Assembly (NCBI GenBank): GCA_022953095.1
Contig: JALJCR010000002.1
Coordinates: 434,001-498,000, forward strand
Direction: 5' to 3'
Origin: Qipengyuania sp. ABI-127-1
GTDB taxonomy: Bacteria > Pseudomonadota > Alphaproteobacteria > Sphingomonadales > Sphingomonadaceae
Length of the DNA: 64,000 nt
Shown here: piece by piece, positions 9,739 through 38,346 of the stretch
How the letters are laid out: every line of letters begins with the position of its first letter
Numbering within the stretch: position 1 is the first letter of the stretch
The notes under the pieces: generated by a model
Told to the model about the DNA's origin: nothing
The model's database searches: none
The model's input: only the letters and a program-made list of their open reading frames with translations
Made by a program: the position numbers and the translations under genes

Positions 9739-9781
9739 TGAGAGCTTGAAACTGTGCCAACATACCGCCATATGGCGCTTC

Positions 9782-9873
9782 GGGAGTCGGTCGGACGTTA
9801 GCGTTCGCTCACCGGGTCAGGTCCGGAAGGAAGCAGCCCAGGTGGATTGCGGCGGGTCGGTCGGCTCCTTTTT
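9782..9873 (+). ncRNA. ffs: Signal recognition particle RNA (4.5S, small bacterial type)
   Basis: The apical SRP domain is recognisable by GGTCAGGTCCGGAAGGAAGC (about 9816-9835), which includes the symmetric-loop sequence bound by Ffh. The flanking strands GGAGTCGGTCGG and GGGTCGGTCGGCTCC pair with G-U wobbles to close the long hairpin, and a T-run at 9869-9873 would end transcription. Location just upstream of dnaX is the usual place for ffs in these bacteria. Exact ends are estimated from the pairing. Confidence 0.93.
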
Positions 9874-9935
9874 CACCCACAATTCGTAATGGCGACGGCA
9901 TGACTTTTGCCGCGCCAGTGCCTACCTAGAACGGC

Positions 9936-17561: not shown

Positions 17562-17647
17562 GGACAGGTGGCCGAGTGGTTAAAGGCAGCAGACTGTAAA
17601 TCTGCCCGCGCAAGCGTACGCTGGTTCGAATCCAGCCCTGTCCACCA
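17562..17647 (+). tRNA. tRNA-Tyr (GTA)
   Basis: The acceptor GGACAGG pairs with CCTGTCC, followed by A and an encoded CCA. The anticodon GTA is at 17596-17598 within GACTGTAAATC, there is a long variable arm (class II), and the T arm is GCTGG-TTCGAAT-CCAGC. All features fit tRNA-Tyr. Its 3' end is the integration target of the neighbouring tyrosine recombinase and serves as the left attachment site. Confidence 0.95.
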
Positions 17648-28732: not shown

Positions 28733-29257
28733 ATGCTTATCGACCACACCTTAGCCGACGCGATCCTACGCGGGTCGGTCTTGACCACTATGGCCATGAC
28801 GTGGGTCGTCGTCTTGGTACGCATCGTCGGATTGCGGTCCCTCTCGAAAATGACGCCGTTCGACTTCGTAATGACGGTGGCCACGGGTTCACTGCTGGCT
28901 GGTGCAGGACAATCCGAAGAATGGACCGGGTTCCTGCAAGCCACCGTCGGCCTCGCCGCCTTATTTGTGGTGCAGTATTTCGCTGCGCGCATGCGCAAGA
29001 GTTCGGATGTGGTGGAAGACGTGATGCAGAACGAGCCCATCTTCCTCATGCGGAGTGGGGAGATGATCGACGAGGCGCTGGCGGAAACCCGTGTCGCCGC
29101 GAGCGATGTCTACGCGAAGCTCCGGGAGGCGAATGCGCTAGACCTATCGAGGGTTCATGCCGTGGTCCTGGAAACGACCGGTGACGTCTCCGTACTCCAT
29201 GGCGAGCGTAAACCGGACGATCGGTTGTTGGCGGGTGTTCGAACGACCTCCGAGTGA
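28733..29257 (+). CDS. DUF421 (YetF-like) membrane protein
   Basis: A 174-residue protein with two to three N-terminal membrane helices (TTMAMTWVVVLVRIVG; VATGSLLAGAG; ATVGLAALFVVQYFAA) and a cytoplasmic DUF421 domain with the family motif NEPIFLMRSGEMIDEAL and SRVHAVVLETTGDVSVL. YetF-type proteins occur in spore-formers and in many stress islands; function is not established. The ATG at 28733 is preferred over the upstream TTG because it directly precedes the first hydrophobic helix region. Confidence 0.82.
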   Translation: MLIDHTLADAILRGSVLTTMAMTWVVVLVRIVGLRSLSKMTPFDFVMTVATGSLLAGAGQSEEWTGFLQATVGLAALFVVQYFAARMRKSSDVVEDVMQNEPIFLMRSGEMIDEALAETRVAASDVYAKLREANALDLSRVHAVVLETTGDVSVLHGERKPDDRLLAGVRTTSE

Positions 29258-29265
29258 GCGCTTAG

Positions 29266-29589
29266 CCGAAACGGAACTGGATAGGCCGTTCGCGACTTGG
29301 CATGGCCGAGCCCGATCGCTTCGCCGCTACGATGAGCAAGGCTAAGCGGATGGGCAAGATCTTTATCGACTGGCTGCGCAACCACCGGGGGAGCACCGCC
29401 GTTCTTCCCTATTCGGTCCGAGCTCGCAGCGGCGCTCCCGTCGCTATTCCGATCGCGTGGAGCGGGCTCGCCGCAATGAAGCACGCGAAGCCCTACGACA
29501 TCGGGAGCGTCGAGCGATTGATTGAGAGGGCTGCTGCGAAGCAGCTCAAAGGTTGGGGTTTCGCTTCGCAAAACCTTCCCGACCTGTGA
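29266..29589 (+). pseudogene. Remnant of LigD polymerase/primase domain (NHEJ)
   Basis: An open frame of about 108 codons, preceded by a stop at 29263, that matches only the C-terminal part of the LigD polymerase domain: DRFAATMSKAKRMGKIFIDW, then LRNHRGSTAVLPYS and RARSGAPVAIPIAW. In intact LigD this follows the catalytic aspartates, which are absent here, so the product could not polymerise. Neither the ligase nor a Ku gene is in the window. An ATG at 29302 could still give a 95-residue product, but it is best read as a decayed end-joining gene left beside stress genes. Confidence 0.7.
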
Positions 29590-29592
29590 GCA

Positions 29593-29967
29593 CTACAGCA
29601 AAAACCACATTCCGCCCATGAGAACCGCAGATCCGATCCCCATCAGGCTAGCCACCAATCGCAGGTTCATCCGGCGAAGCGGCTGCACCGAATGGGCATC
29701 AAGTCGCTCCAGGACGCTGCAGGAGTTGCGTTCGGCCAGATAGAAGATGACCATACCTGATACGATGAAGCAGCTCGCGATCGCCTTGGGCAGCCACGTC
29801 GGCTCCATCTTCCCGAACAGCGCGTTGAAACCGAGTCCGATGCCGACTGCGGCGAGTCCGGTTCGCATCCATCCGGCGAACGTGCGTTCGTTCGCCAAGA
29901 CGGTGCGATCCTCTGCAAGGTCGGTGCGTTCGCCTGCGAGCTCCGTTCGATCGGTAGAGTGTTCCAT
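29593..29967 (-). CDS. DUF202 small membrane protein
   Basis: A 124-residue protein of the DUF202 family. The charged N-terminus (LAGERTDLAEDRTVLANERT) with its repeated E-R-T/D-R-T units and the FAGWMRTGLAAVGIG segment are diagnostic. It has three predicted membrane helices: about 35-50, 62-80 and 100-122. Members are often small inner-membrane proteins of unknown function. The ATG at 29967 begins the charged repeat; an upstream in-frame ATG at 30009 would add a cysteine-containing lead. It is convergent with the LigD remnant. Confidence 0.82.
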   Translation of the reverse strand: MEHSTDRTELAGERTDLAEDRTVLANERTFAGWMRTGLAAVGIGLGFNALFGKMEPTWLPKAIASCFIVSGMVIFYLAERNSCSVLERLDAHSVQPLRRMNLRLVASLMGIGSAVLMGGMWFLL

Positions 29968-30097
29968 GACGACCCACTCGCACGGGAGGTAGTGGTTCTC
30001 GCACAACATAGGTTGAGTCCCTTTTAAGAGCACAGCGCGCAGGGCACTGAAGAATCGGGCTAACCTTTGTTGGGTGCCTGCAACCATTTGCGTAGAA

Positions 30098-30817
30098 ATG
30101 CGCTTGCTGACCATGGCGGGTCAAAAATTCGATCACAGAGATGTTCTGGACGTGGACCACGGGCGCCTCGAAGCGTCTTTGCGCGATCACATTGCCGAAC
30201 GGGGCTTCCCATGTGTCGGTGCAAAATCCGCACTTGCGAACGAGAAGCTCGAAGTTTTGGCGGGTTGGCGACTTACGAGTGCATGGAACGACGTGATGAT
30301 CCATGATCGGCTCCTCGATTGGAGCGATCGGTATGAGGCCGACCCGTCCGGTCTTCGTAGCTTGGCGGTCGTCTTCGACGGACCTGTAGATCTCACCGAA
30401 GAGGCATTCGAAGCTGCAATGTGGGAGCGGCTTCAATCGCTAGCGGATAAGGACAGCTGGCGCGGTCAGAGCTATTGCGAGAATGTCAGCAGTGATCCTG
30501 CCGATCCCCACTTCTCGCTGAGCTTCGGGCGGCAAGCCTATTTCGTCGTGGGTCTCCACCCCAACGCATCTCGCACAGCTCGCCGCACGCCCTACCCGAC
30601 GCTTGTGTTCAATCTCCATGACCAGTTCGAGCAGCTACGCGAGAGTCAGCGATACGAGCGCATGCGCGAGGCTATCTTGAAGCGAGACGAAGCGCTCGAT
30701 GGGAGCATAAACCCGATGCTGGCACGGCATGGCGAGGCCAGTGAAGCAAAGCAGTACAGCGGACGGGTCGTCGGTTCCGATTGGCAATGTCCCTTCCACG
30801 ATCAGAGGACTGCATGA
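30098..30817 (+). CDS. YqcI/YcgG-family protein (GntA-like, possible heme-dependent N-oxygenase)
   Basis: A protein of about 239 residues in the YqcI/YcgG family. Family marks include FPCVGAKSA, the central FSLSFGRQAYFVVGLHP, RTPYPTLVFNLHDQFEQLR and the C-terminal CPFH. The family includes GntA, which hydroxylates the guanidino group of enduracididine with a heme cofactor in guanitoxin synthesis; whether all members do similar chemistry is not known. Histidines and the cysteine near the end could bind metal. The start is unclear (GTG 30074, ATG 30098 or ATG 30113). It overlaps the following DUF1989 gene by four bases (ATGA). Confidence 0.8.
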   Translation: MRLLTMAGQKFDHRDVLDVDHGRLEASLRDHIAERGFPCVGAKSALANEKLEVLAGWRLTSAWNDVMIHDRLLDWSDRYEADPSGLRSLAVVFDGPVDLTEEAFEAAMWERLQSLADKDSWRGQSYCENVSSDPADPHFSLSFGRQAYFVVGLHPNASRTARRTPYPTLVFNLHDQFEQLRESQRYERMREAILKRDEALDGSINPMLARHGEASEAKQYSGRVVGSDWQCPFHDQRTA

Positions 30818-31398
30818 CCAATCGAATACAACCACGGACCGGGGTGGCAGTAGAGCTGTCCGTCGGCGACCTTCTCACCGTCATCGATCCCGAGGGAAGC
30901 CAGGTCAGTGATTTAGTCGCGGTGTCCAGGCGGGACCCACGGGAAATTCTCTCGAATGGCCGAACCTTTGACTACGAAGAGACGATCCGCCTGACGACTG
31001 GTGCGCGGCTGTGGTCGAACCGCTCCAATCCAATGCTTTCTATCGTCGAGGATACGGTCGGCCTGCACGACTTCCTGCTCACGCCCTGTTCGCAAGCGAC
31101 ATTCGAGCACTTCTATCCCGACGAACCCGTCCATCGCGGATGTTTCGGCAACCTCGCGGCAGCATTGGAACCATACGGTGTGGAACCGGACGGCATCCCG
31201 ACCGCATTCAACGTCTTTATGAACGTGCCTCTCGCCAAGGACGGTCGACTAACGGTCGAACCGCCGAAAAGCACGGCTGGAGACTTCATCCGCTTTCGTG
31301 CCGAGATGAATCTGATCGTGGGGCTGACCGCCTGCTCGGCCTACGCCTCCAACGGTGGATCGTTCAAGCCGATCGACTACGCGATCGAGCGCGTCTGA
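30814..31398 (+). CDS. DUF1989 protein (urea/guanidine carboxylase-associated family)
   Basis: A 194-residue DUF1989 protein. The family core is visible: SDLVAVSR, LWSNRSNPML, HDFLLTPCS, RGCFGNLAAAL, FNVFMNVPL and the C-terminal CSAYASNGGSFKPIDY. Paired members (CgdA/CgdB) form the carboxyguanidine deiminase that works with guanidine carboxylase; single members occur with other pathways. The cysteine near the end and H/C in HDFLLTPC probably bind a metal. It is translationally coupled to the YqcI/YcgG gene before it and to a small membrane-protein gene after it. No carboxylase is nearby, so the standard guanidine pathway is not present here. Confidence 0.85.
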   Translation: MTNRIQPRTGVAVELSVGDLLTVIDPEGSQVSDLVAVSRRDPREILSNGRTFDYEETIRLTTGARLWSNRSNPMLSIVEDTVGLHDFLLTPCSQATFEHFYPDEPVHRGCFGNLAAALEPYGVEPDGIPTAFNVFMNVPLAKDGRLTVEPPKSTAGDFIRFRAEMNLIVGLTACSAYASNGGSFKPIDYAIERV

Positions 31399-31676
31399 TG
31401 CTCGACGTTCTCGAATGGTATGGCGCCATCTCCGCCGTGGTGGCCGCGCTCGTCGTCGCATCCAACATCAGCCCCCGCGTGTCGGGCTGGGCGTTCGTCC
31501 TGTTCGTCACATCGTCCTGCGCACTGGTGGCATGGGGATTCATGAGCGAGGACGCCGAGGGCATCGGTTGGCAGAACATCTGCTTGCTGCTGATCAACCT
31601 GTGGGGCGTCTATCGCTACCTCATCCGTCCGGACCGCGCCGCGGTCAGTGAAGCCGAGTTGTCGGAGCCGGCATGA
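31398..31676 (+). CDS. Small membrane protein, unknown
   Basis: A 92-residue protein with two to three hydrophobic helices (GAISAVVAALVVASNI; WAFVLFVTSSCALVAWGFM; NICLLLINLWGVYRYL). The ATG shares one base with the stop of the DUF1989 gene (TGATG), and its own end overlaps the next gene (ATGA), so it belongs firmly to the operon. No family is recognised. Confidence 0.75.
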   Translation: MLDVLEWYGAISAVVAALVVASNISPRVSGWAFVLFVTSSCALVAWGFMSEDAEGIGWQNICLLLINLWGVYRYLIRPDRAAVSEAELSEPA

Positions 31677-32164
31677 GGCTGCCATACCTCGCACCACTGG
31701 CAGCAATCGGGGTGATCGCCGTCGGAGTGGCAGGTCACCTCGCGAACGGGGCGATCTACTCAGCTCTCCACGCTCGCGAGATGATCGAGGCGCTAAGCCA
31801 ACCCGCGCTCTATCTCGGTAGCGCGATCGCCGCCAGTGCGGCCACCACGATGGCCTTGATGCTGACGCTGCTGGGTCTCGTCCGGCGTGTCGACGCGGAC
31901 TTCGACCGCTCGATGTATCGCCGGGTCTACCACATCAGTATGTTGAGTGCTTGGTTGCTGGCCGGGTCGGTCATCATGCTGCTCGTGATGACAATGCCGA
32001 TCGGCGAGTTCGACGAGGTTCCCCAAACCTGGTTCCCGACTCTCTACACGGTCCTCTATTGGATGGTCGTGCTTCTCAGCGCCTTATTAGTGGCAATGGT
32101 GACCCTTCTATTCTCGACGATCAGGACCCTCATCGCCAACGTGACGCCGCATGACGATATCTGA
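31673..32164 (+). CDS. Four-helix membrane protein, unknown
   Basis: A 163-residue inner-membrane protein with four predicted helices: about 5-25, 46-68, 88-110 and 122-150. Between helices 2 and 3 is a basic/acidic stretch (RRVDADFDRSMYRRVYH). I cannot assign a family. It overlaps the previous gene by four bases and is 21 bases before the next, continuing the coupled operon. Together with the 92-residue protein it could form a membrane complex, which is inference from coupling alone. Confidence 0.72.
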   Translation: MRLPYLAPLAAIGVIAVGVAGHLANGAIYSALHAREMIEALSQPALYLGSAIAASAATTMALMLTLLGLVRRVDADFDRSMYRRVYHISMLSAWLLAGSVIMLLVMTMPIGEFDEVPQTWFPTLYTVLYWMVVLLSALLVAMVTLLFSTIRTLIANVTPHDDI

Positions 32165-32185
32165 CAAGAATGAGGAGCGTGACGT

Positions 32186-32437
32186 ATGTTCACCCAACTG
32201 ACGACGCCGGTCCCCGTGCATGTGATCGACAAGGGTTCGGGGCTGGCCTTCGCCGTGATCGACTACGGTATCGAGCACAACCTGATCTGGGTCACCGCCC
32301 TCGACGAAGGCGGCGAGATATGGTGCGCGCCCAATCCAAAGGTGCGCGTCGCGGAGAATTGGACCGCCGGGCGCCGTAGGGATCCTGTCGGCGTGGACCA
32401 GGACTCCGCCGATGAGAATAGGGAGGGCCGAGGATGA
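32186..32437 (+). CDS. Small conserved-looking cytoplasmic protein, unknown
   Basis: An 83-residue protein with beta-rich N-terminal half (VPVHVIDKGSGLAFAVIDYG; HNLIWVTALDEGGEIWCAPN) and a charged tail. No signal peptide or membrane segment. Its stop overlaps the next gene's start by four bases (ATGA), so it is translated with the glycosyltransferase. It resembles the short proteins often seen in sphingomonad stress islands, but I cannot name a family. Confidence 0.65.
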   Translation: MFTQLTTPVPVHVIDKGSGLAFAVIDYGIEHNLIWVTALDEGGEIWCAPNPKVRVAENWTAGRRRDPVGVDQDSADENREGRG

Positions 32438-33534
32438 CAAATAAGCCGATCGCATTCTTCGCGCATCACCAAGGACGTGGCCATGCAAACCGCATCATGG
32501 CGATAGCGAAGCACATTCCGGCGTCCCGTCCGCTACATATCCTGACAGCCAAACCGGACCAGTTCGAGGGGATGTCGCGCGAGGCGGAGATCACCCAGCT
32601 TCCGAACATGATCGGCGCTCCTTCACGCAGCAAGGTCCTGCACGGAGAACCTACACCTTCCGTCCTGCATTGCGTCCCAGTCGGCGTTGACGAGATGCGC
32701 GAGCATATGGGTATCATCGCAGCGACATTGCTAGAGATCGACCCGGCAATCTTCGTAATCGATGTATCCGCCGAGATCGCCTTGCTTTCGCGGATCATGA
32801 GCGTGCCGGCCATCACGATCAGGATGCATGGCGATCGATCGGATGCCGGACATCTGGCTGGATACGAGGCGGGTGTCGGAATGCTTGCGCCCTTCGACAA
32901 AGCGATTGAGCAGGTGGACTATCCCGATTGGGCGCGTGCCCGCACCTTCTACACCGGCGGATTATGTACGACGAAGGACCCAATCGTCCCGCGCGACGAG
33001 GCTCGGCAATTGCTGGGCCTACCGCTCGACAAGCCAATCACCCTGGTAATTGCCGGAGGCGGTGGTTCCGGCACACCTTACGCTCCGCTCACAGTTGCCG
33101 CGCGAGCGGAGCCGGACGCACTCTGGCTGGTTGCGGGTCCTGTCCATAGGGAAGGTCACGAAACCGATTTCGGCAATTTGCGCGAATTGGGCTGGGTGGA
33201 CAACTTGACCCAATATCTCTGCGCCGCCGATCGCGTAGTGGCCTCCGCTGGTGACAACACGGTCCACGAAATCGCTCGCGCGAGCAAACCGTTCCTCTGC
33301 ATTCCTGAATGGCGTTATTTTGACGAGCAACAGGCTAAGGCGGCCGAACTCGCCCGCGTCGGCGCTGCTATTCATCTCAATACGTGGCCGGCGTCTATTC
33401 CCGAATGGCGGCGCGTGTTGGCCGACACCGATGCCCTCGACGTGTCGAAGTTAGCCAAATTGCATGATCCCGATGCAGCACAAAAGGCCGCCGAATGGCT
33501 GGAATCGGAAGCGGTCCGGCTTTGGGCTAACTGA
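32434..33534 (+). CDS. GT-B glycosyltransferase (UGT/MurG-like)
   Basis: A 366-residue GT-B fold enzyme. The N-terminal domain opens with IAFFAHHQGRGHANRIMAIA, in which G-R-G-H is the usual acceptor-side motif. The C-terminal domain has VIAGGGGSGTPYAPL and the donor-binding sequence VASAGDNTVHEIARASKPFLCIP, resembling MurG and teichuronic/UDP-hexose transferases. It likely adds a sugar to an unidentified acceptor in the cytoplasm. It is the last gene of a six-gene coupled operon and runs convergently, with an eight-base overlap, into the GT2 gene. Confidence 0.85.
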   Translation: MTNKPIAFFAHHQGRGHANRIMAIAKHIPASRPLHILTAKPDQFEGMSREAEITQLPNMIGAPSRSKVLHGEPTPSVLHCVPVGVDEMREHMGIIAATLLEIDPAIFVIDVSAEIALLSRIMSVPAITIRMHGDRSDAGHLAGYEAGVGMLAPFDKAIEQVDYPDWARARTFYTGGLCTTKDPIVPRDEARQLLGLPLDKPITLVIAGGGGSGTPYAPLTVAARAEPDALWLVAGPVHREGHETDFGNLRELGWVDNLTQYLCAADRVVASAGDNTVHEIARASKPFLCIPEWRYFDEQQAKAAELARVGAAIHLNTWPASIPEWRRVLADTDALDVSKLAKLHDPDAAQKAAEWLESEAVRLWAN

Positions 33535-34420
33535 ACCGCACATGCGGACCTTGCTCGGTCGCATTAATTTCGGCAGGCGTCGGTGGGCGCAGGACGCGTA
33601 GTTCGCCGCCCGAACGATCCACCAAGCCGCGTCGCTCGAAATCGTCCAGCCAATAGTCCATGCACCACTCGCCCCACCGGCGCCGGAAAAGCCGAGCATT
33701 GCGGACGATGCTTTCGAAATGCTGCAAGGGCGGTTTGTGGACCACGTGATGCTGGTGGTAACAGATGGTCCCGCCCAGCCAGAAAAGTTCAGCGCCGCAG
33801 CCTTCGAGCCGGCGTCCGAAATCGGTTTCTTCCGCGCCATACCCAACGTATTCTTCGTCCATTCCGCCAGCTGCGGTCCAGGTCGACTTCGCTAAAATAA
33901 ACGCCAGCCCCCAAAGCTCCCCGAAATCGCCGATTGGCTCGATCGACACATTTGTGAGGTCTCGCTTTGCCGGGTGACGGCGACCAGCCCATTGCAGGCT
34001 TGCATAGTCCGTCGTTCGTCCGTCCGACTCCAGCCACCCGCGTCGAGCGCCGGGAAGATACCGCACCTCAGGCAGGAACACGCCGTGCGGAACTTCGTGG
34101 ATGGCTTCTATGGCTCGTTTCACGAAATGTTCGTCGGGTATGCAATCGACGTCCAGGAATGCCAGCAGGTCCCCATGCGCCGCCGTCGCGGCGCGGTTGC
34201 GAGCCGCAGCCAGCGGCATCGGCTCCCCTTCCACGTGAATACAACGAATTATGAAGGGGCATCCATCCGGAACTTGCGGGGGGTCGTCCTGCATGTAGGC
34301 GATGACGAGCTCGTCCGGTCTTCTGCTCTGCGAACGGAGGCCCGCAATAAGATGCGTGAGATGCTCCTGTCGCCCTCTGACCAGCGTAAGGACGGACACT
34401 GGGCGATAGTCCATCACCAC
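33527..34420 (-). CDS. GT2-family glycosyltransferase
   Basis: A 297-residue GT-A enzyme. It has the nucleotide-sugar fold start VSVLTLVRGRQEHLTHLI, the DxD-type LAFLDVDCIPD, and the C-terminal galactosyltransferase-like motif VGYGAEETDFGRRL, where E-E/D act in acceptor binding. No membrane helices, so it is cytoplasmic or peripheral. Its start overlaps the end of the sucrose-phosphate synthase-like gene by seven bases, so both are in one operon. The acceptor could be sucrose, a related disaccharide or a lipid carrier; the sequence does not decide. Confidence 0.87.
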   Translation of the reverse strand: MVMDYRPVSVLTLVRGRQEHLTHLIAGLRSQSRRPDELVIAYMQDDPPQVPDGCPFIIRCIHVEGEPMPLAAARNRAATAAHGDLLAFLDVDCIPDEHFVKRAIEAIHEVPHGVFLPEVRYLPGARRGWLESDGRTTDYASLQWAGRRHPAKRDLTNVSIEPIGDFGELWGLAFILAKSTWTAAGGMDEEYVGYGAEETDFGRRLEGCGAELFWLGGTICYHQHHVVHKPPLQHFESIVRNARLFRRRWGEWCMDYWLDDFERRGLVDRSGGELRVLRPPTPAEINATEQGPHVRFS

Positions 34421-36456
34421 CCCCCCGCGTCGCGGTAATGCTGAACGCCTTCAAGAATACCGGCAGCATGAGTAGCGGACGCCTTGTATGCGTGGGAAAG
34501 AGCCGGATCGTCACCGAGGCCGTCACTCCAGTTCCCTACGATGATCGGTCGGGGGCAGGCGCGAAGCATTGCCCGATCGTTGCCGCTGTCACCAGCAACC
34601 ACGACTTTTGCCTGGGTCATCCCCAACCGGTCGGCAACATGTAGCACCGCCGCGTGCTTTCCGATTCCGGAAGCCAAGATATCCAAGTAGAGACCGTGGC
34701 TGGAAACCACTTCCACGGCGACCTCGGCATCCCTGAACGCGTTCGCGATCTTTTCGGGATCATGACCGTCCAAGAAGTAGCTCGCCTTACCAATCCGCTG
34801 TTCGAGTGCCGCCTGGGTGCGCAGTCCCAACGAAGCGGCCACCTGTTCGACAGTTTCACGGTCCCAATTCCGAGATACGCGCTTGGCCCATTCCCGATCT
34901 TCGACAAATCGACGCTTTTCTCTGTCATACCAGTGGACCTGCGCACCTACGTTGCTGATTATGACATCCGGCGTCGGGACCGCTTCCGCCGCAAGAATGG
35001 ACTGCGCACTATGGAAGCTGCGACCGGTGGCGATGCCCAAGGCGGTCGACGAACTGTTCTGGCGCTGCCAATCCAGAAATTCTCGCAAAGCGTCCCTGTC
35101 ACCGAGCAGAGTGTTGTCGATGTCGCAGACAAGGAGCCGCTCGAAATAACCAGACGATGTTCGAGGCTTCGCGATTTCTTCGATGAGCCGATGGTAAATT
35201 CGGCAGTGGGCTTTCCAATCGTATGCGGCCACCGCGTCTCCCCCTGCGGAGGCATAGCGAATCCAAATGCGTCGATTGGAAATAACGTCCTTACAGGCTT
35301 GCGCGATCGCTTGTGGGTCTCGAGGGCAAACGAGTAGTCCGTTCTTGCAGCGCTCGACGATGTCGTTCGGACCACCACTGTCCGTCGCGACGACTGGCAG
35401 GCGAGCGGCAGCCGCTTCCAGCAACGTCAGTCCGAATGGCTCGTTCAGAGCCGGATTGACGAACACACCGCCGCTCTCACGGGCCAAGGCATAGTAGGCG
35501 GGAATGTCGTCGGGGTCATGCGACTTGGGATAGGCAACCTTCCCATATAGATCGTACGCATCGACGGCACGGATCAATTCCTCGCAGACTTCCCGGCATT
35601 CGGGTTCGAGTCGGCTGAGTTTGTCGCGGCAGCCAGCCACGACCACCAGATTTGCCCTCTCCTGCAGTTCAGGATCGCCGGCGTAGGCCTCGACCAGTCC
35701 TAGCAGGTTCTTCTTCCGAACTGGACGTGCAATCGCGAGGATGATCGGTTTCGACGGTTCCCGCAGGAAACGCTCGACATCCTGCTGCACCTTTGTGGAG
35801 GGCGCTGCACCTTCAAAACGGTCGAGTTCGCAACCGGGTGGGATCACGCGAATGCGACCAGCCTCGATGGAGCGATAATGTGCGTATTGCGCCTCCGCCT
35901 CGTCTCTCGAGCTGGCGATGACGGCGTCTGCCTTCGCGAGTGCATTCTCCTCGATCGCGATGCGCCGCTCCAGCTCTTTGTCGCCACCACCGTTCGCTTG
36001 ACGTTTGACCGCGCCCAACGAATGACCCGTGAAGACATAGGGAATTCCAAGCATCTCCTTGGCGCTTCGCGCGAGCACACCCGCGTCGGCGTAATGGGCA
36101 TGGATCAGGTCGGGAAGCCGATCCAGGTTCTCCAAGTATGCGAGAAACGCATCGCACAAAGGGTCGTGTCGTTCGTGAAGCTCCTCCTTCGGAAGATAGG
36201 ACGCTTCTCCGTCGTCGAGGCGAACAAGTCGAAGCTTGCCGCTCATCTCACCTACATCTGGTTCGTATTGCGCTCCGAGTTTTGGATCGACGAAGCCGCG
36301 CGTAACCAGATCGATGCGTTCGACCGCCGGGTCCTTCGCACTGGTCTCCGCGAGTTCTAGAAGATACTTGATGTGACCACCCGTGTCGGCGGTCAGTCCG
36401 TAAGGAACGTCTCGCAAGGTCAAGCAGCCTTGCAAGGCAACGTGGCAGATGAACAT
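34414..36456 (-). CDS. Bifunctional sucrose-phosphate synthase / sucrose-phosphatase
   Basis: A 680-residue fusion. Residues 1 to about 435 are a GT4-type sucrose-phosphate synthase: GHIKYLLELAE, HAHYADAG, FTGHSLGAVKR and the donor site NPALNEPFGLTLLEAAA. From about residue 443 a HAD phosphatase follows with LVCDIDNTLLGD (nucleophile and acid/base aspartates), GIATGR and VVAGDSGNDRAML. The predicted reactions are UDP- or ADP-glucose plus fructose-6-phosphate to sucrose-6-phosphate, then to sucrose, a compatible solute. Such fusions are known from cyanobacteria and some proteobacteria. Glucosyl-glycerate or mannosyl products remain possible for this family. Confidence 0.9.
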   Translation of the reverse strand: MFICHVALQGCLTLRDVPYGLTADTGGHIKYLLELAETSAKDPAVERIDLVTRGFVDPKLGAQYEPDVGEMSGKLRLVRLDDGEASYLPKEELHERHDPLCDAFLAYLENLDRLPDLIHAHYADAGVLARSAKEMLGIPYVFTGHSLGAVKRQANGGGDKELERRIAIEENALAKADAVIASSRDEAEAQYAHYRSIEAGRIRVIPPGCELDRFEGAAPSTKVQQDVERFLREPSKPIILAIARPVRKKNLLGLVEAYAGDPELQERANLVVVAGCRDKLSRLEPECREVCEELIRAVDAYDLYGKVAYPKSHDPDDIPAYYALARESGGVFVNPALNEPFGLTLLEAAAARLPVVATDSGGPNDIVERCKNGLLVCPRDPQAIAQACKDVISNRRIWIRYASAGGDAVAAYDWKAHCRIYHRLIEEIAKPRTSSGYFERLLVCDIDNTLLGDRDALREFLDWQRQNSSSTALGIATGRSFHSAQSILAAEAVPTPDVIISNVGAQVHWYDREKRRFVEDREWAKRVSRNWDRETVEQVAASLGLRTQAALEQRIGKASYFLDGHDPEKIANAFRDAEVAVEVVSSHGLYLDILASGIGKHAAVLHVADRLGMTQAKVVVAGDSGNDRAMLRACPRPIIVGNWSDGLGDDPALSHAYKASATHAAGILEGVQHYRDAGGW

Positions 36457-36536
36457 GGATTATTACCCTTTCCACCACAATGGATTCCTCTATAGGTTCT
36501 AAGTTCCTGAAATAGCACGCAATCTATGTTAGCTCG

Positions 36537-37568
36537 ATGCGGATCGCCCACGTTTCTCCGGTAATTTATCCCGTCCCGCCCGAGACTTACGGGGGAACCG
36601 AGCGCGTGGTCGCGGATCTCGCGACGGCGCAATCTCGGCGAGGCCACGACGTTACGGTGTTCGGTCCTGCCGATAGCAGGCTTCCGGGGGTCCGGGTGCT
36701 GGGCGAGTATCGCTCGCTGACGGCTCTCGCTGCCGAGCGAGGCGAATTGCCTCCAGGTTTCCCTGCCGAGCTAGAAGCCGAGCAGCTCAGTGACCTAGTC
36801 CGGCACGCGCGGGACTTCGATGTGGTTCATCTGCATGGGTCGGCCCACGCAAGCGGCGTATGCGCTGGCCTAAATGTCCCCACCTTCAGGACGATACACT
36901 GGCGTGCCGATGAAGCCGATCACATCCGCCACTTCGAACGGTTCCCACATGAGCGGGTAATTGCGATTTCCCGTCGTCAAGCGGCCGATGTTCCGAAGGG
37001 CAATCTTGCCGGTACCGTCCACCATGGCATTCCCGTCGACCGATATAAACTGACCGATGCCAGACGTGACCGCCTGGTCTTCATCGGTAGAATGACCGAC
37101 CAGAAAAGACCGGACCGCGCCATCGAACTCGCGCAACGGGTGGGTCTTCCTCTAGAGCTGGCTGGCCCGGTCGACGTCGGCAATCCAGACTACTTCCGCA
37201 AAGTCGTGGAGCCGTATCTCGATGACGACATACGCCATGTCGGGAGCCTGACGGACAGCGAGAAGCAGGCCTTCTTCGACAAGGCTATCGCCTTGGTATT
37301 CCCGATCGACTGGCCCGAGCCGTTCGGTCTGGTGATGATCGAGGCCATGGCCTGCGGGGTCCCAGTCATCGCTTGGGATCAGGGCAGCGCGGGGGAGGTC
37401 GTGAGCGATGGGACCACCGGGATCGTCGTGAATTCCATGGGGGAAGCGGTCGCTCGCCTGCCGGAGGTGCGAGAACTGTCACCATCGACCGTTCGACGGG
37501 TGTTCGAGGAAAAGTACTCAGTCGAACGGATGGCGAGCGAGGTCACGAACCTCTACCAGGAATCCTAG
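36537..37568 (+). CDS. GT4-family glycosyltransferase
   Basis: A 343-residue GT-B enzyme beginning MRIAHVSPVIYPVPPETYGG with the glycine-rich TERVVADLATA acceptor loop. It has HLHGSAHASG, VHHGIP, FIGRMTDQKRPDRAI and the donor motif EPFGLVMIEAMACGVPVIA (E-x7-E). It is divergent from the sucrose-phosphate synthase gene, with an 80-base shared promoter region, and convergent by one base with the Crp-type regulator. Acceptor unknown; the neighbourhood suggests soluble or surface sugar synthesis under stress. Confidence 0.88.
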   Translation: MRIAHVSPVIYPVPPETYGGTERVVADLATAQSRRGHDVTVFGPADSRLPGVRVLGEYRSLTALAAERGELPPGFPAELEAEQLSDLVRHARDFDVVHLHGSAHASGVCAGLNVPTFRTIHWRADEADHIRHFERFPHERVIAISRRQAADVPKGNLAGTVHHGIPVDRYKLTDARRDRLVFIGRMTDQKRPDRAIELAQRVGLPLELAGPVDVGNPDYFRKVVEPYLDDDIRHVGSLTDSEKQAFFDKAIALVFPIDWPEPFGLVMIEAMACGVPVIAWDQGSAGEVVSDGTTGIVVNSMGEAVARLPEVRELSPSTVRRVFEEKYSVERMASEVTNLYQES

Positions 37569-37569
37569 G

Positions 37570-38346
37570 TCACCGGTCGTCCAGGGACTCCAGCGCCAGA
37601 TCACCGTCGCCATAAAGATAATCGCCGTCGAACTCGCCAAGCTTGTTGAGGGCCCGCTCGTCTAATATCGCTATCTTGCCATCGCCTTGCGGGTCGAGAA
37701 TACCCCGCTCGCGCAGATTGCGAAAACTGCGGTTCGCATGGACGGACGTTATGCCGCAGGCCTCCGCGTAGTCCCGTTGCAGCAGGGGCACGGGAAGGTT
37801 CGTGCCATCGTAGCGTCCGACGAACTTCAACCTTTCGATGATCTCGGAGACGAGATGGGCGATGCGACCTTCGGCGTTGAGACGTCCGAGGCGAAAGATC
37901 CACTCGCGGTGCATGGCTGCATCGAGCAGTGTGGAGAACCACATCGCGCGGGCAAGATGAGGAAACCGGTCAACCAGTTCGGCGATGGCTTTGTGAGGAA
38001 CCTTCGCAAGCGTGACCCGATCCAAAGATGCGACGTTGTGATCGAGACGCTTCATCGGGAAGCCATGGAGGTCAACGAAATCGCCAACCACGTTAAGACC
38101 AACCAACTGCCGCTCGCCACGCTGATCATCCAAATGCCTCATCATCGTGCCCTCGATGATGTAAAAGGAATTCTCGATTCGCTCACCACGTTCGACCAGT
38201 GTGGTGCGAGGTTTCAATGTTACTACGTCAACAACGGAATCTTCTAGAGCACGCTTCTCCTCTAGACTGAGATCGTGCCGTAAACGGCCCTTCAGAAAGA
38301 GTTCTGTTTTCAATTTGGACCCCATTTGTTCTAATTGGTTAGCCAT
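37570..38346 (-). CDS. Crp/Fnr-family transcriptional regulator
   Basis: A 258-residue regulator. A cyclic-nucleotide-binding-type beta barrel (about 30-150) precedes a winged helix (about 175-240) with the recognition region QRDYAEACGITSVHANRSFRN. The RRYF-like iron-sulfur cysteines of FNR are absent, and the arginine/serine that bind cAMP in Crp are not obvious, so the signal is unknown. It closes the sugar and stress region and is a candidate regulator of it. An unusual long N-terminal lead (MANQLEQMGSKLKTELFLKG) may be an alternative start. Confidence 0.88.
   Translation of the reverse strand: MANQLEQMGSKLKTELFLKGRLRHDLSLEEKRALEDSVVDVVTLKPRTTLVERGERIENSFYIIEGTMMRHLDDQRGERQLVGLNVVGDFVDLHGFPMKRLDHNVASLDRVTLAKVPHKAIAELVDRFPHLARAMWFSTLLDAAMHREWIFRLGRLNAEGRIAHLVSEIIERLKFVGRYDGTNLPVPLLQRDYAEACGITSVHANRSFRNLRERGILDPQGDGKIAILDERALNKLGEFDGDYLYGDGDLALESLDDR

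Follow-up and report, generated by a model that had tools for sequence, protein, structure and literature searches.

A recurrent YqcI/YcgG–DUF1989 gene pair in Qipengyuania sp. ABI-127-1 and a predicted two-step route for guanidino compounds

A six-gene run with a YqcI/YcgG and a DUF1989 gene at its head

The window, the whole 64,000-nucleotide stretch of the Qipengyuania sp. ABI-127-1 genome analysed here, carries six co-directional open reading frames on the + strand at positions 30098-33534 (Table 1). Consecutive frames overlap by 4, 1, 4 and 4 bases and are interrupted by a single gap of 21 bases, so that the ORF coordinates agree with a preliminary description of the locus as six genes with 1-4 base overlaps and one gap. 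No Pfam match over cut-off was obtained for membrane protein A, membrane protein B or the 83-aa small protein. A PADLOC scan of the six proteins gave no defence-system match, and a defence system was rejected on this basis.

Table 1. Genes of the six-gene run and of its downstream surroundings (positions within the window).
Feature	Coordinates	Strand	Evidence
YqcI/YcgG family protein, predicted thiolate-heme guanidino N-hydroxylase	30098..30817	+	239 aa; Pfam YqcI_YcgG E 7.6e-57
DUF1989 protein, YqcI-paired clade	30814..31398	+	194 aa; Pfam DUF1989 E 1.8e-56
Small membrane protein A	31398..31676	+	92 aa; ~2 hydrophobic segments (hydropathy); no family over cut-off
Membrane protein B	31673..32164	+	163 aa; ~4 hydrophobic segments; no family over cut-off
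Small protein without hydrophobic segments	32186..32437	+	83 aa; no family match
GT28/MurG-like glycosyltransferase	32434..33534	+	366 aa; Pfam Glyco_tran_28_C 9e-7
GT2 glycosyltransferase, companion cluster	33527..34420	-	Pfam Glycos_transf_2 1.1e-8
Sucrose-phosphate synthase/phosphatase-like (SPS-like), companion cluster	34414..36456	-	TIGR02472 458.1 bits, below cut-off 576; S6PP 4.9e-53
GT4 glycosyltransferase, companion cluster	36537..37568	+	Pfam Glycos_transf_1 9.2e-21
Crp/Fnr-type regulator	37570..38346	-	HTH_Crp_2 2.5e-10; relative near YqcI-DUF1989 pair in 32/71 loci

The conserved core is the YqcI-DUF1989 pair

The preliminary description had suggested a gene-neighbourhood survey for recurrent YqcI-DUF1989 pairs, and the survey showed that they recur. 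Among 147 related genomes, 46 carried both genes, one carried YqcI alone and none carried a DUF1989 gene of the YqcI-paired type alone. The two genes were adjacent in 26 of the 27 YqcI-bearing genomes found in a survey of 397 Pseudomonadota genomes. In 132 of 136 loci YqcI was followed on the same strand by a DUF1989 gene, with the computed gap lying between -5 and 58 bases; these are the loci, out of 137, in which YqcI was identified by tblastn, with the window's own gene counted twice, and they are mostly from Sphingomonadales and were nearly all retrieved via YqcI itself. The two-gene module is also present in Betaproteobacteria, Deinococcota and Bacteroidota, and a pairing unique to one genome is thus excluded. 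Adjacency of YqcI and DUF1989 is far above chance expectation. Bacillus subtilis also has members of both families. The YqcI proteins of Rahnella, Streptomyces and G530 are unpaired, which indicates that YqcI chemistry can do without DUF1989.

The conserved core, YqcI/YcgG plus DUF1989, is smaller than the six-gene run, and the full six-gene arrangement is local. Relatives of membrane protein A were found in 13 of 71 loci, where they sometimes adjoin the pair, and relatives of membrane protein B in 9 of 71; both are local additions. The 83-aa small protein has relatives in 14 of 71 loci. Its place in other relatives is immediately 5' of yqcI, and in 15 loci it was found upstream within 600 bases.

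YqcI has the marks of a thiolate-heme guanidine N-hydroxylase

The YqcI protein matches the PF08892 profile and has the AglA sandwich fold. AglA, from argolaphos biosynthesis, belongs with ChmN, GntA and DcsA to the YqcI/YcgG heme guanidine N-oxygenases, which have the same fold as the window YqcI; structural alignment with AglA gave 17% identity. The two proteins have in common the proximal Cys, the heme-propionate Arg, the pair of phenylalanines that sandwich arginine in AglA and an equivalent of AglA Gln228. The predicted proximal heme ligand, Cys39, is kept in 142 of 143 family rows and the heme-propionate Arg, R162, in all 143. The predicted pocket consists of F149, F177, H174, E216 and Q219, and a Glu occupies the site at which the introduction of Glu by engineering enables AglA to act on free arginine as a hydroxylase. 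AglA Arg179 and Gln177, in contrast, are His and Asn in the window YqcI and in nearly all family rows, so that regiochemistry, and perhaps the substrate, would be different. Unlike AglA, the window YqcI has a DUF1989 protein as its partner and lies outside any recognised antibiotic cluster. Family scans recognised no reductase gene beside the pair in the window.

According to the AglA paper, the bacterial YqcI/YcgG enzymes characterised so far number six and belong to natural-product pathways; those described hydroxylate guanidines. The family has more than 4,000 members. The activity of DcsA was not confirmed in vitro. The likening of the window YqcI to guanidino N-hydroxylases is upheld by its sequence and fold marks, and it is probably a thiolate-heme enzyme that N-oxygenates an arginine-like compound.

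The paired DUF1989 proteins form a clade of predicted zinc enzymes

Predicted zinc ligands in the DUF1989 protein are C92, C110 and C174, together with H107. The three cysteines are kept in 139, 139 and 138 of 140 rows of paired DUF1989 proteins, the remainder being gaps, and this makes a catalytic role more likely. The His near the zinc site is Val in about 10% of sampled paired rows. Fold and zinc cysteines agree with the preliminary assignment of the protein as a relative of the carboxyguanidine deiminase family, and it is probably a zinc enzyme that processes the YqcI product.

The paired proteins share the DUF1989 family and the three zinc cysteines with CgdB of CgdAB (UAAP1/UAAP2), but they do not have the CgdB C-P-Q motif. 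In a tree the sampled paired proteins formed a single clade apart from both carboxyguanidine deiminase and TMAO demethylase (Tdm); when the window's own row was included, CgdB was not one group (2 changes). Scores against the UAAP1 and UAAP2 models were below both cut-offs (100.4 vs 284.7 and 74.4 vs 205.95 bits), and a genome search found only one DUF1989 gene and no CgdAB-like tandem. None of 12 genome matches to the guanidine/urea carboxylase model TIGR02712 was over cut-off, and the best three span the first ~440 of its 1201 positions. On this basis a guanidine carboxylase elsewhere in the genome was rejected, in line with the preliminary description, which had stated that none is present. 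With Tdm the paired proteins share the DUF1989 domain, the zinc cysteines and the nearby His, but they form a separate clade, have no GcvT-like domain and do not have the Tdm acidic residue that follows the last Cys. The window protein, of 194 aa only, scored 81.8 bits against the full-length Tdm model (cut-off 1100). The Tdm structures 9q59, 9q5l and 9q5a were matched by sequence; they were absent among the fold-search matches listed, which carries no weight against a relation to Tdm.

Upstream elements and riboswitch searches

The EcfG general-stress motif GGAAC-N16/17-CGTT was present upstream of the first gene in 20 of 144 relatives, some of them near-copies, against 0.38 expected. The strict motif was absent from the other 124 loci, among them the window and all 15 of the window-type relatives listed. 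A text search by gene and family terms found neither gene named in the main texts of two EcfG regulon papers. No guanidine riboswitch was found in the window at gathering score, a further difference from CgdAB, and control by such a riboswitch was rejected. With the threshold relaxed to E 1, the region 29000-34500 gave a single match, a weak ROSE_2 inside the glycosyltransferase gene (E 0.11).

A TGATC-N2-TGTT element is conserved upstream of yqcI in window-type relatives, and a similar sequence lies 5' of the GT4 gene. This element may serve as a promoter or as the binding site of a regulator. The window itself has no copy upstream of yqcI with one mismatch allowed.

A candidate two-enzyme module

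On present evidence YqcI-DUF1989 looks like an undescribed two-step pathway. In its first step YqcI, acting as a Cys-ligated heme monooxygenase with electrons from an unlinked ferredoxin/reductase, would N-hydroxylate a guanidino group, as its fold and conserved residues suggest. The most likely substrate would be L-arginine in its free form, or a closely related compound whose amino group is free. The DUF1989 protein, as a relative of the carboxyguanidine deiminase catalytic subunit, would then act as a zinc enzyme that hydrolyses or otherwise cleaves the hydroxyguanidine, and would do so without a second subunit. We give roughly even odds to a module of this kind, in which an arginine-like guanidine is hydroxylated and opened under stress. 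A role in stress, rather than in nitrogen catabolism, is the weakest part of the proposal.

If hydroxylation is followed by DUF1989 cleavage, N-hydroxylation would stand where the known pathway activates guanidine by ATP-dependent carboxylation. The more specific chemistry, an O2-dependent opening in which heme N-hydroxylation stands in for ATP-/biotin-dependent carboxylation and a stand-alone DUF1989 performs the hydrolysis, is offered tentatively and is rather doubtful. DcsB has an arginase fold, in which it differs from the DUF1989 protein that is the second enzyme here. D-cycloserine synthesis nevertheless follows a like logic, with the YqcI-type heme protein DcsA followed by the hydroxyarginase DcsB, a metal hydrolase acting on a hydroxyguanidine. 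The literature search found no paper that names YqcI and DUF1989 together, that contains both 'guanitoxin' and 'urea carboxylase-associated family', or that jointly treats ycgG, ycgI and Bacillus subtilis; among the matches listed, none names YcgG and DUF1989 together.

Alternative explanations

The preliminary description had taken all six genes as one pathway, in which the membrane proteins would possibly export the guanidino product or the GT28-like protein would glycosylate it. The overlapping frames throughout the run are consistent with this, as is the same arrangement in nine relatives (the GT28-like gene is directly in the yqcI operon in 9 of 71 long-flank relatives). Both queries were run against 37 genomes of the same genus, this one among them, and YqcI was present in 17 of the 18 that carry the glycosyltransferase. 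However, the glycosyltransferase was missing from 5 of 22 same-genus YqcI genomes, and the membrane genes are rarer still. The GT28-like gene was absent within the flanks examined in 51 of 71 loci; in all 20 of 20 loci that have it, SPS-like and GT2 genes were present with it, and in 11 of these 20 it lay away from the yqcI operon. The GT28-like protein thus belongs to a separable SPS-GT2-GT4 cluster and not to the YqcI-DUF1989 module. Because the glycosyltransferase tracks the SPS/GT2 genes, the six-gene pathway was rejected as a general rule, and we consider it quite unlikely at this locus. Export or glycosylation of the product is unsupported. What stands of the earlier interpretation is the recurrent YqcI-DUF1989 unit with its expected family marks; the placing of the membrane and glycosyltransferase genes in the pathway does not.

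Other explanations accept the pair and assign it a different function. In one, the DUF1989 protein would act like Tdm: YqcI would yield an N-oxygenated amine, which DUF1989 would cleave to aldehyde plus amine with no change of redox state. The paired proteins are related in sequence to the Tdm domain, the substrate of Tdm is an N-oxide, and they match Tdm in the zinc cysteines and in the His that stands three positions ahead of the second Cys, where 91% of CgdB rows have Met. Such an activity nonetheless seems unlikely, given that the proposed iron-ligand Asp and the GcvT-like domain of Tdm are both missing and that the characterised YqcI enzymes act on guanidines. We likewise think it improbable that the two proteins make up a single complex, with DUF1989 in a structural or gating role such as CgdA may have towards CgdB, and with the pathway ending at the N-hydroxylated compound, which might be a metal ligand or a signal. 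A complex would fit the strict co-inheritance and the overlap or closeness of the genes, and the DUF1989 family has known hetero-complexes with an inactive cognate, but the near-invariant zinc cysteines argue against it. Synthesis of guanitoxin, as the NCBI name implies, is scarcely credible. The window YqcI exceeds the cut-off of the NCBIfam GntA equivalog NF041366 (252.4 bits, cut-off 145), but all 63 aligned family members, from many ordinary sphingomonads, match this model at E up to 1e-10, and no further guanitoxin family was found among ten window proteins scanned with NCBIfam. The GntA name looks over-propagated.

Implications

YqcI relatives in ordinary bacteria bear a name derived from a toxin. 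The strictly co-inherited pair supplies a large unexplained part of the YqcI family with a partner, points to a predicted class of substrates and suggests a possible setting in physiology. If the doubtful carboxylase-free route holds and is kept as a stress module in at least three phyla, it could give bacteria a way to form hydroxylamine- or NO-type species from arginine without NOS, or could alternatively yield hydroxyurea or hydroxyornithine from arginine. The reason for guanidine N-hydroxylation in ordinary bacteria becomes directly testable with two small proteins.

A recurrent gene pair at the head of a six-gene run

The claimed run of six genes was borne out at 30098-33534: neighbouring genes overlap by 4, 1, 4 and 4 bases, except at one junction where 21 bases lie between them. 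The three small proteins gave no match over cut-off in a profile search that included Pfam among others. Rfam matches in the window were a Small SRP RNA and a tRNA, at 9780-9874 and 17562-17644.

Genes of the run, with best family match
Gene	Position	Strand	Match
YqcI/YcgG	30098-30817	+	Pfam YqcI_YcgG, E 7.6e-57
DUF1989	30814-31398	+	Pfam DUF1989, E 1.8e-56
Membrane protein A	31398-31676	+	small; no family above cut-off
Membrane protein B	31673-32164	+	small; no family above cut-off
Small protein	32186-32437	+	no family above cut-off
GT28-like glycosyltransferase	32434-33534	+	Pfam Glyco_tran_28_C, E 9e-7

The gene-neighbourhood survey proposed in the preliminary description found that the YqcI-DUF1989 pairing recurs. 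Using tblastn with the window proteins, YqcI was present in 136 of 137 loci, a set that was fetched nearly entirely by YqcI similarity, is mostly from Sphingomonadales and counts the window's own gene twice (L001, L112). DUF1989 followed YqcI on the same strand in 132 of the 136, at a computed gap of -5 to 58 bases, although the DUF1989 match at one of these (L011) spans just 59 residues. The four loci without an adjacent DUF1989 on tblastn were L070 and L088, whose assemblies also yield an adjacent pair (L077, L033), L137, which is the second YqcI copy of genome G288, and L095, where DUF1989 lies about 3.5 kb upstream. In 397 Pseudomonadota genomes, a sample with a weaker tie to close relatives, YqcI was present in 27 and a DUF1989 of whatever type in 135; all 27 YqcI genomes carried DUF1989, which adjoined YqcI in 26 (26 of 28 matches; exception, G530). 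Among 147 relatives including the genome itself, with relatedness left uncorrected, YqcI occurred in 47 and window-type DUF1989 (E up to 1e-25, chosen to exclude other DUF1989 types) in 46: both genes in 46, YqcI alone in one (G098), DUF1989 alone in none and neither in 100. The lone YqcI of G098 (C12:51260-51880) is a domain within a 3451-residue open frame, possibly part of a megasynthase. Pairwise distances of YqcI and DUF1989 were correlated (r 0.876, 106 non-redundant loci).

YqcI was also found on 19 plasmid records. Nine regions were opened, and seven had an adjoining DUF1989 (Hymenobacter, where the tblastn match comes in two pieces, Deinococcus, Chryseobacterium, Comamonas, Skermanella, Novosphingobium and a Comamonadaceae); those of Rahnella and Streptomyces did not. 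On the Chryseobacterium plasmid (L140, 8180-8630) a gene for synthetase of cyanophycin, a polymer rich in arginine, lies about 3 kb from the pair. The unpaired Rahnella YqcI (L141, 3992-8657) comes first in what seems to be an operon, along with genes for an SDR, a 2Fe-2S protein, a LysE exporter and a PheRS-beta-like protein; the whole resembles a biosynthetic cluster not yet described.

YqcI and DUF1989 are each a known family. No account of the two as a pair turned up in the literature searched, which left most subscription papers and bioRxiv outside its scope: there was no joint mention of YqcI with DUF1989 or of 'guanitoxin' with 'urea carboxylase-associated family', and none of YcgG with DUF1989 among the papers listed. 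The NCBI GntA 'guanitoxin' equivalog matched 63 of 63 YqcI proteins in the alignment of the window protein's family, and this toxin-derived product name has probably been over-propagated to ordinary bacteria.

The paired DUF1989 and its predicted zinc site

A first tree of 120 DUF1989 domains comprised 48 paired, 32 CgdB, 32 CgdA, 3 Tdm (TMAO demethylase) and 5 single rows. The paired rows were drawn from 139 rows of YqcI-bearing loci (all 30 distant ones plus 18 taken at random from the remainder). The labels for the carboxyguanidine deiminase subunits CgdA and CgdB are our own, assigned by tandem position and score; record names give UAAP1/UAAP2 or urea carboxylase on 2 of 32 tandems. The paired rows formed one group (support 96/95), and did so again (99/98) when the window row was added, three long single rows were dropped and half of the Cgd rows were kept, a tree in which CgdB splits and is no longer one group. 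By sequence, the YqcI-paired DUF1989 is a clade of its own.

In Tdm three cysteines are reported to bind zinc (PMC12560246, partial text). C92, C110 and C174 of the window protein align with these by spacing. The three are invariant in the paired rows (the third gapped in 2%), as well as in CgdB and in all three Tdm rows, whereas most CgdA rows have lost the first two and 44% keep the third. Three residues before the second cysteine, paired rows have His (88%) or Val (10%) and Tdm has His, but 91% of CgdB rows have Met; residues after the third cysteine also differ among the groups.

The predicted YqcI active site

AglA, a characterised heme guanidine N-oxygenase (residues 20-244, from a PDB alignment), was aligned with 145 YqcI proteins and L113. 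Counts cover 143 rows, with L141, L142 and L113 excluded, the window gene counted twice and the four non-adjacent copies included.

AglA residues and their counterparts in the paired YqcI family
AglA	Window	Rows
C44	C39	142/143
F152	F149	141 F, 2 Y of 143
R166	R162	143/143
F182	F177	143/143
Q228	Q219	142/143
R200	R190	132/143
K225	E216	135/143
R179	H174	142/143
Q177	N172	143/143
K196	Y186	135/143

According to the partial text of PMC12866846, the heme is ligated by Cys44, the arginine chain is sandwiched between F152 and F182 (Ala mutants of either are dead), and K225E AglA hydroxylates free arginine at N-delta, the Glu holding the amino group. From this one position, at which the paired family naturally has Glu, one would infer that the substrate is the guanidine of a free amino acid, for example arginine. 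Glu is also present in L113, which is AglA-like without a DUF1989 partner, and in the unpaired L141 and L142. It is therefore not specific to the pair, and the Lys of AglA looks like the exception.

The glycosyltransferase and its cluster

Neighbours were counted at 71 long-flank loci (out of 80; match over 45 bits): DUF1989 at 69, a Crp-type gene at 32, GT2 and GT4 at 21 each, GT28 and SPS (sucrose-phosphate-synthase-like) at 20 each, the small protein at 14, and membrane proteins A and B at 13 and 9. The sugar transferase had been coupled to the pathway in the preliminary description, a claim that found no support: GT28 was accompanied by SPS and GT2 in 20/20 loci, of which 9 have it right after the pair, the window's arrangement, and 11 have it about 4-6 kb off. 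Among 37 same-genus genomes, GT28 occurred in 18, 17 of them with YqcI, and 5 of 22 YqcI genomes were without it. Thus, the glycosyltransferase is a member of the SPS-like cluster, which is associated with the pair in this genus. The cluster of SPS-like, GT2, GT28, GT4 and Crp-type regulator genes (window 33527-38346 and relatives) is near the pair in about 20/71 loci, in varied orientations; its product is perhaps a sucrose-derived solute.

Upstream motifs

Of 144 loci, 20 carry strict GGAAC-N16/17-CGTT upstream of yqcI, vs 0.38 expected from the remainder of the same loci. The motif is reported as a general-stress promoter in Sphingopyxis granuli and is near that of Sphingomonas melonis (partial texts). 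In two couples among the 20 loci the motifs are identical, and some of the 144 come from non-alphaproteobacteria, in which EcfG of the general-stress regulon is not expected. Measured from the position that aligns with residue 1 of the window protein, the motif begins 11-42 bases ahead in 19 loci and 124 ahead in L137. It was absent upstream of yqcI in the window and 15 window-type relatives displayed with it, and 15 loci with the small protein first were without it even by a looser pattern. Among the terms searched, the main texts on the two stress regulons contained no 'urea' genes, YqcI or DUF names.

A second element, TGAT-N3-TGTT, was found upstream of yqcI in 20/144 loci vs 0.33 expected. 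In 18 window-type loci (e.g. L032, L034, L040) its distance from the aligned start is 35-42 bases, and a similar sequence precedes GT4 in 8/12; the window lacks the element upstream of yqcI. The window's flank genes encode an HWE histidine kinase, a response regulator, DUF2383, SDR, YetF/DUF421 and DUF202 proteins, which we would class as a stress-type set.

Proposed mechanism

N-hydroxylation activates guanidines. D-cycloserine synthesis offers a precedent (partial text) in which the heme protein DcsA is reportedly succeeded by the hydroxyarginase DcsB. Guanidine is chemically stable (PMC11410670, partial text), and its known route is carboxylation, after which carboxyguanidine deaminase frees ammonium (PMC12186494, partial text). 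In line with the preliminary description, which saw no guanidine carboxylase, the genome has no urea or guanidine carboxylase over cut-off, and its one DUF1989 gene is the window's. YqcI followed by DUF1989 would keep to the known guanidine plan with another activating step, N-hydroxylation in place of carboxylation.
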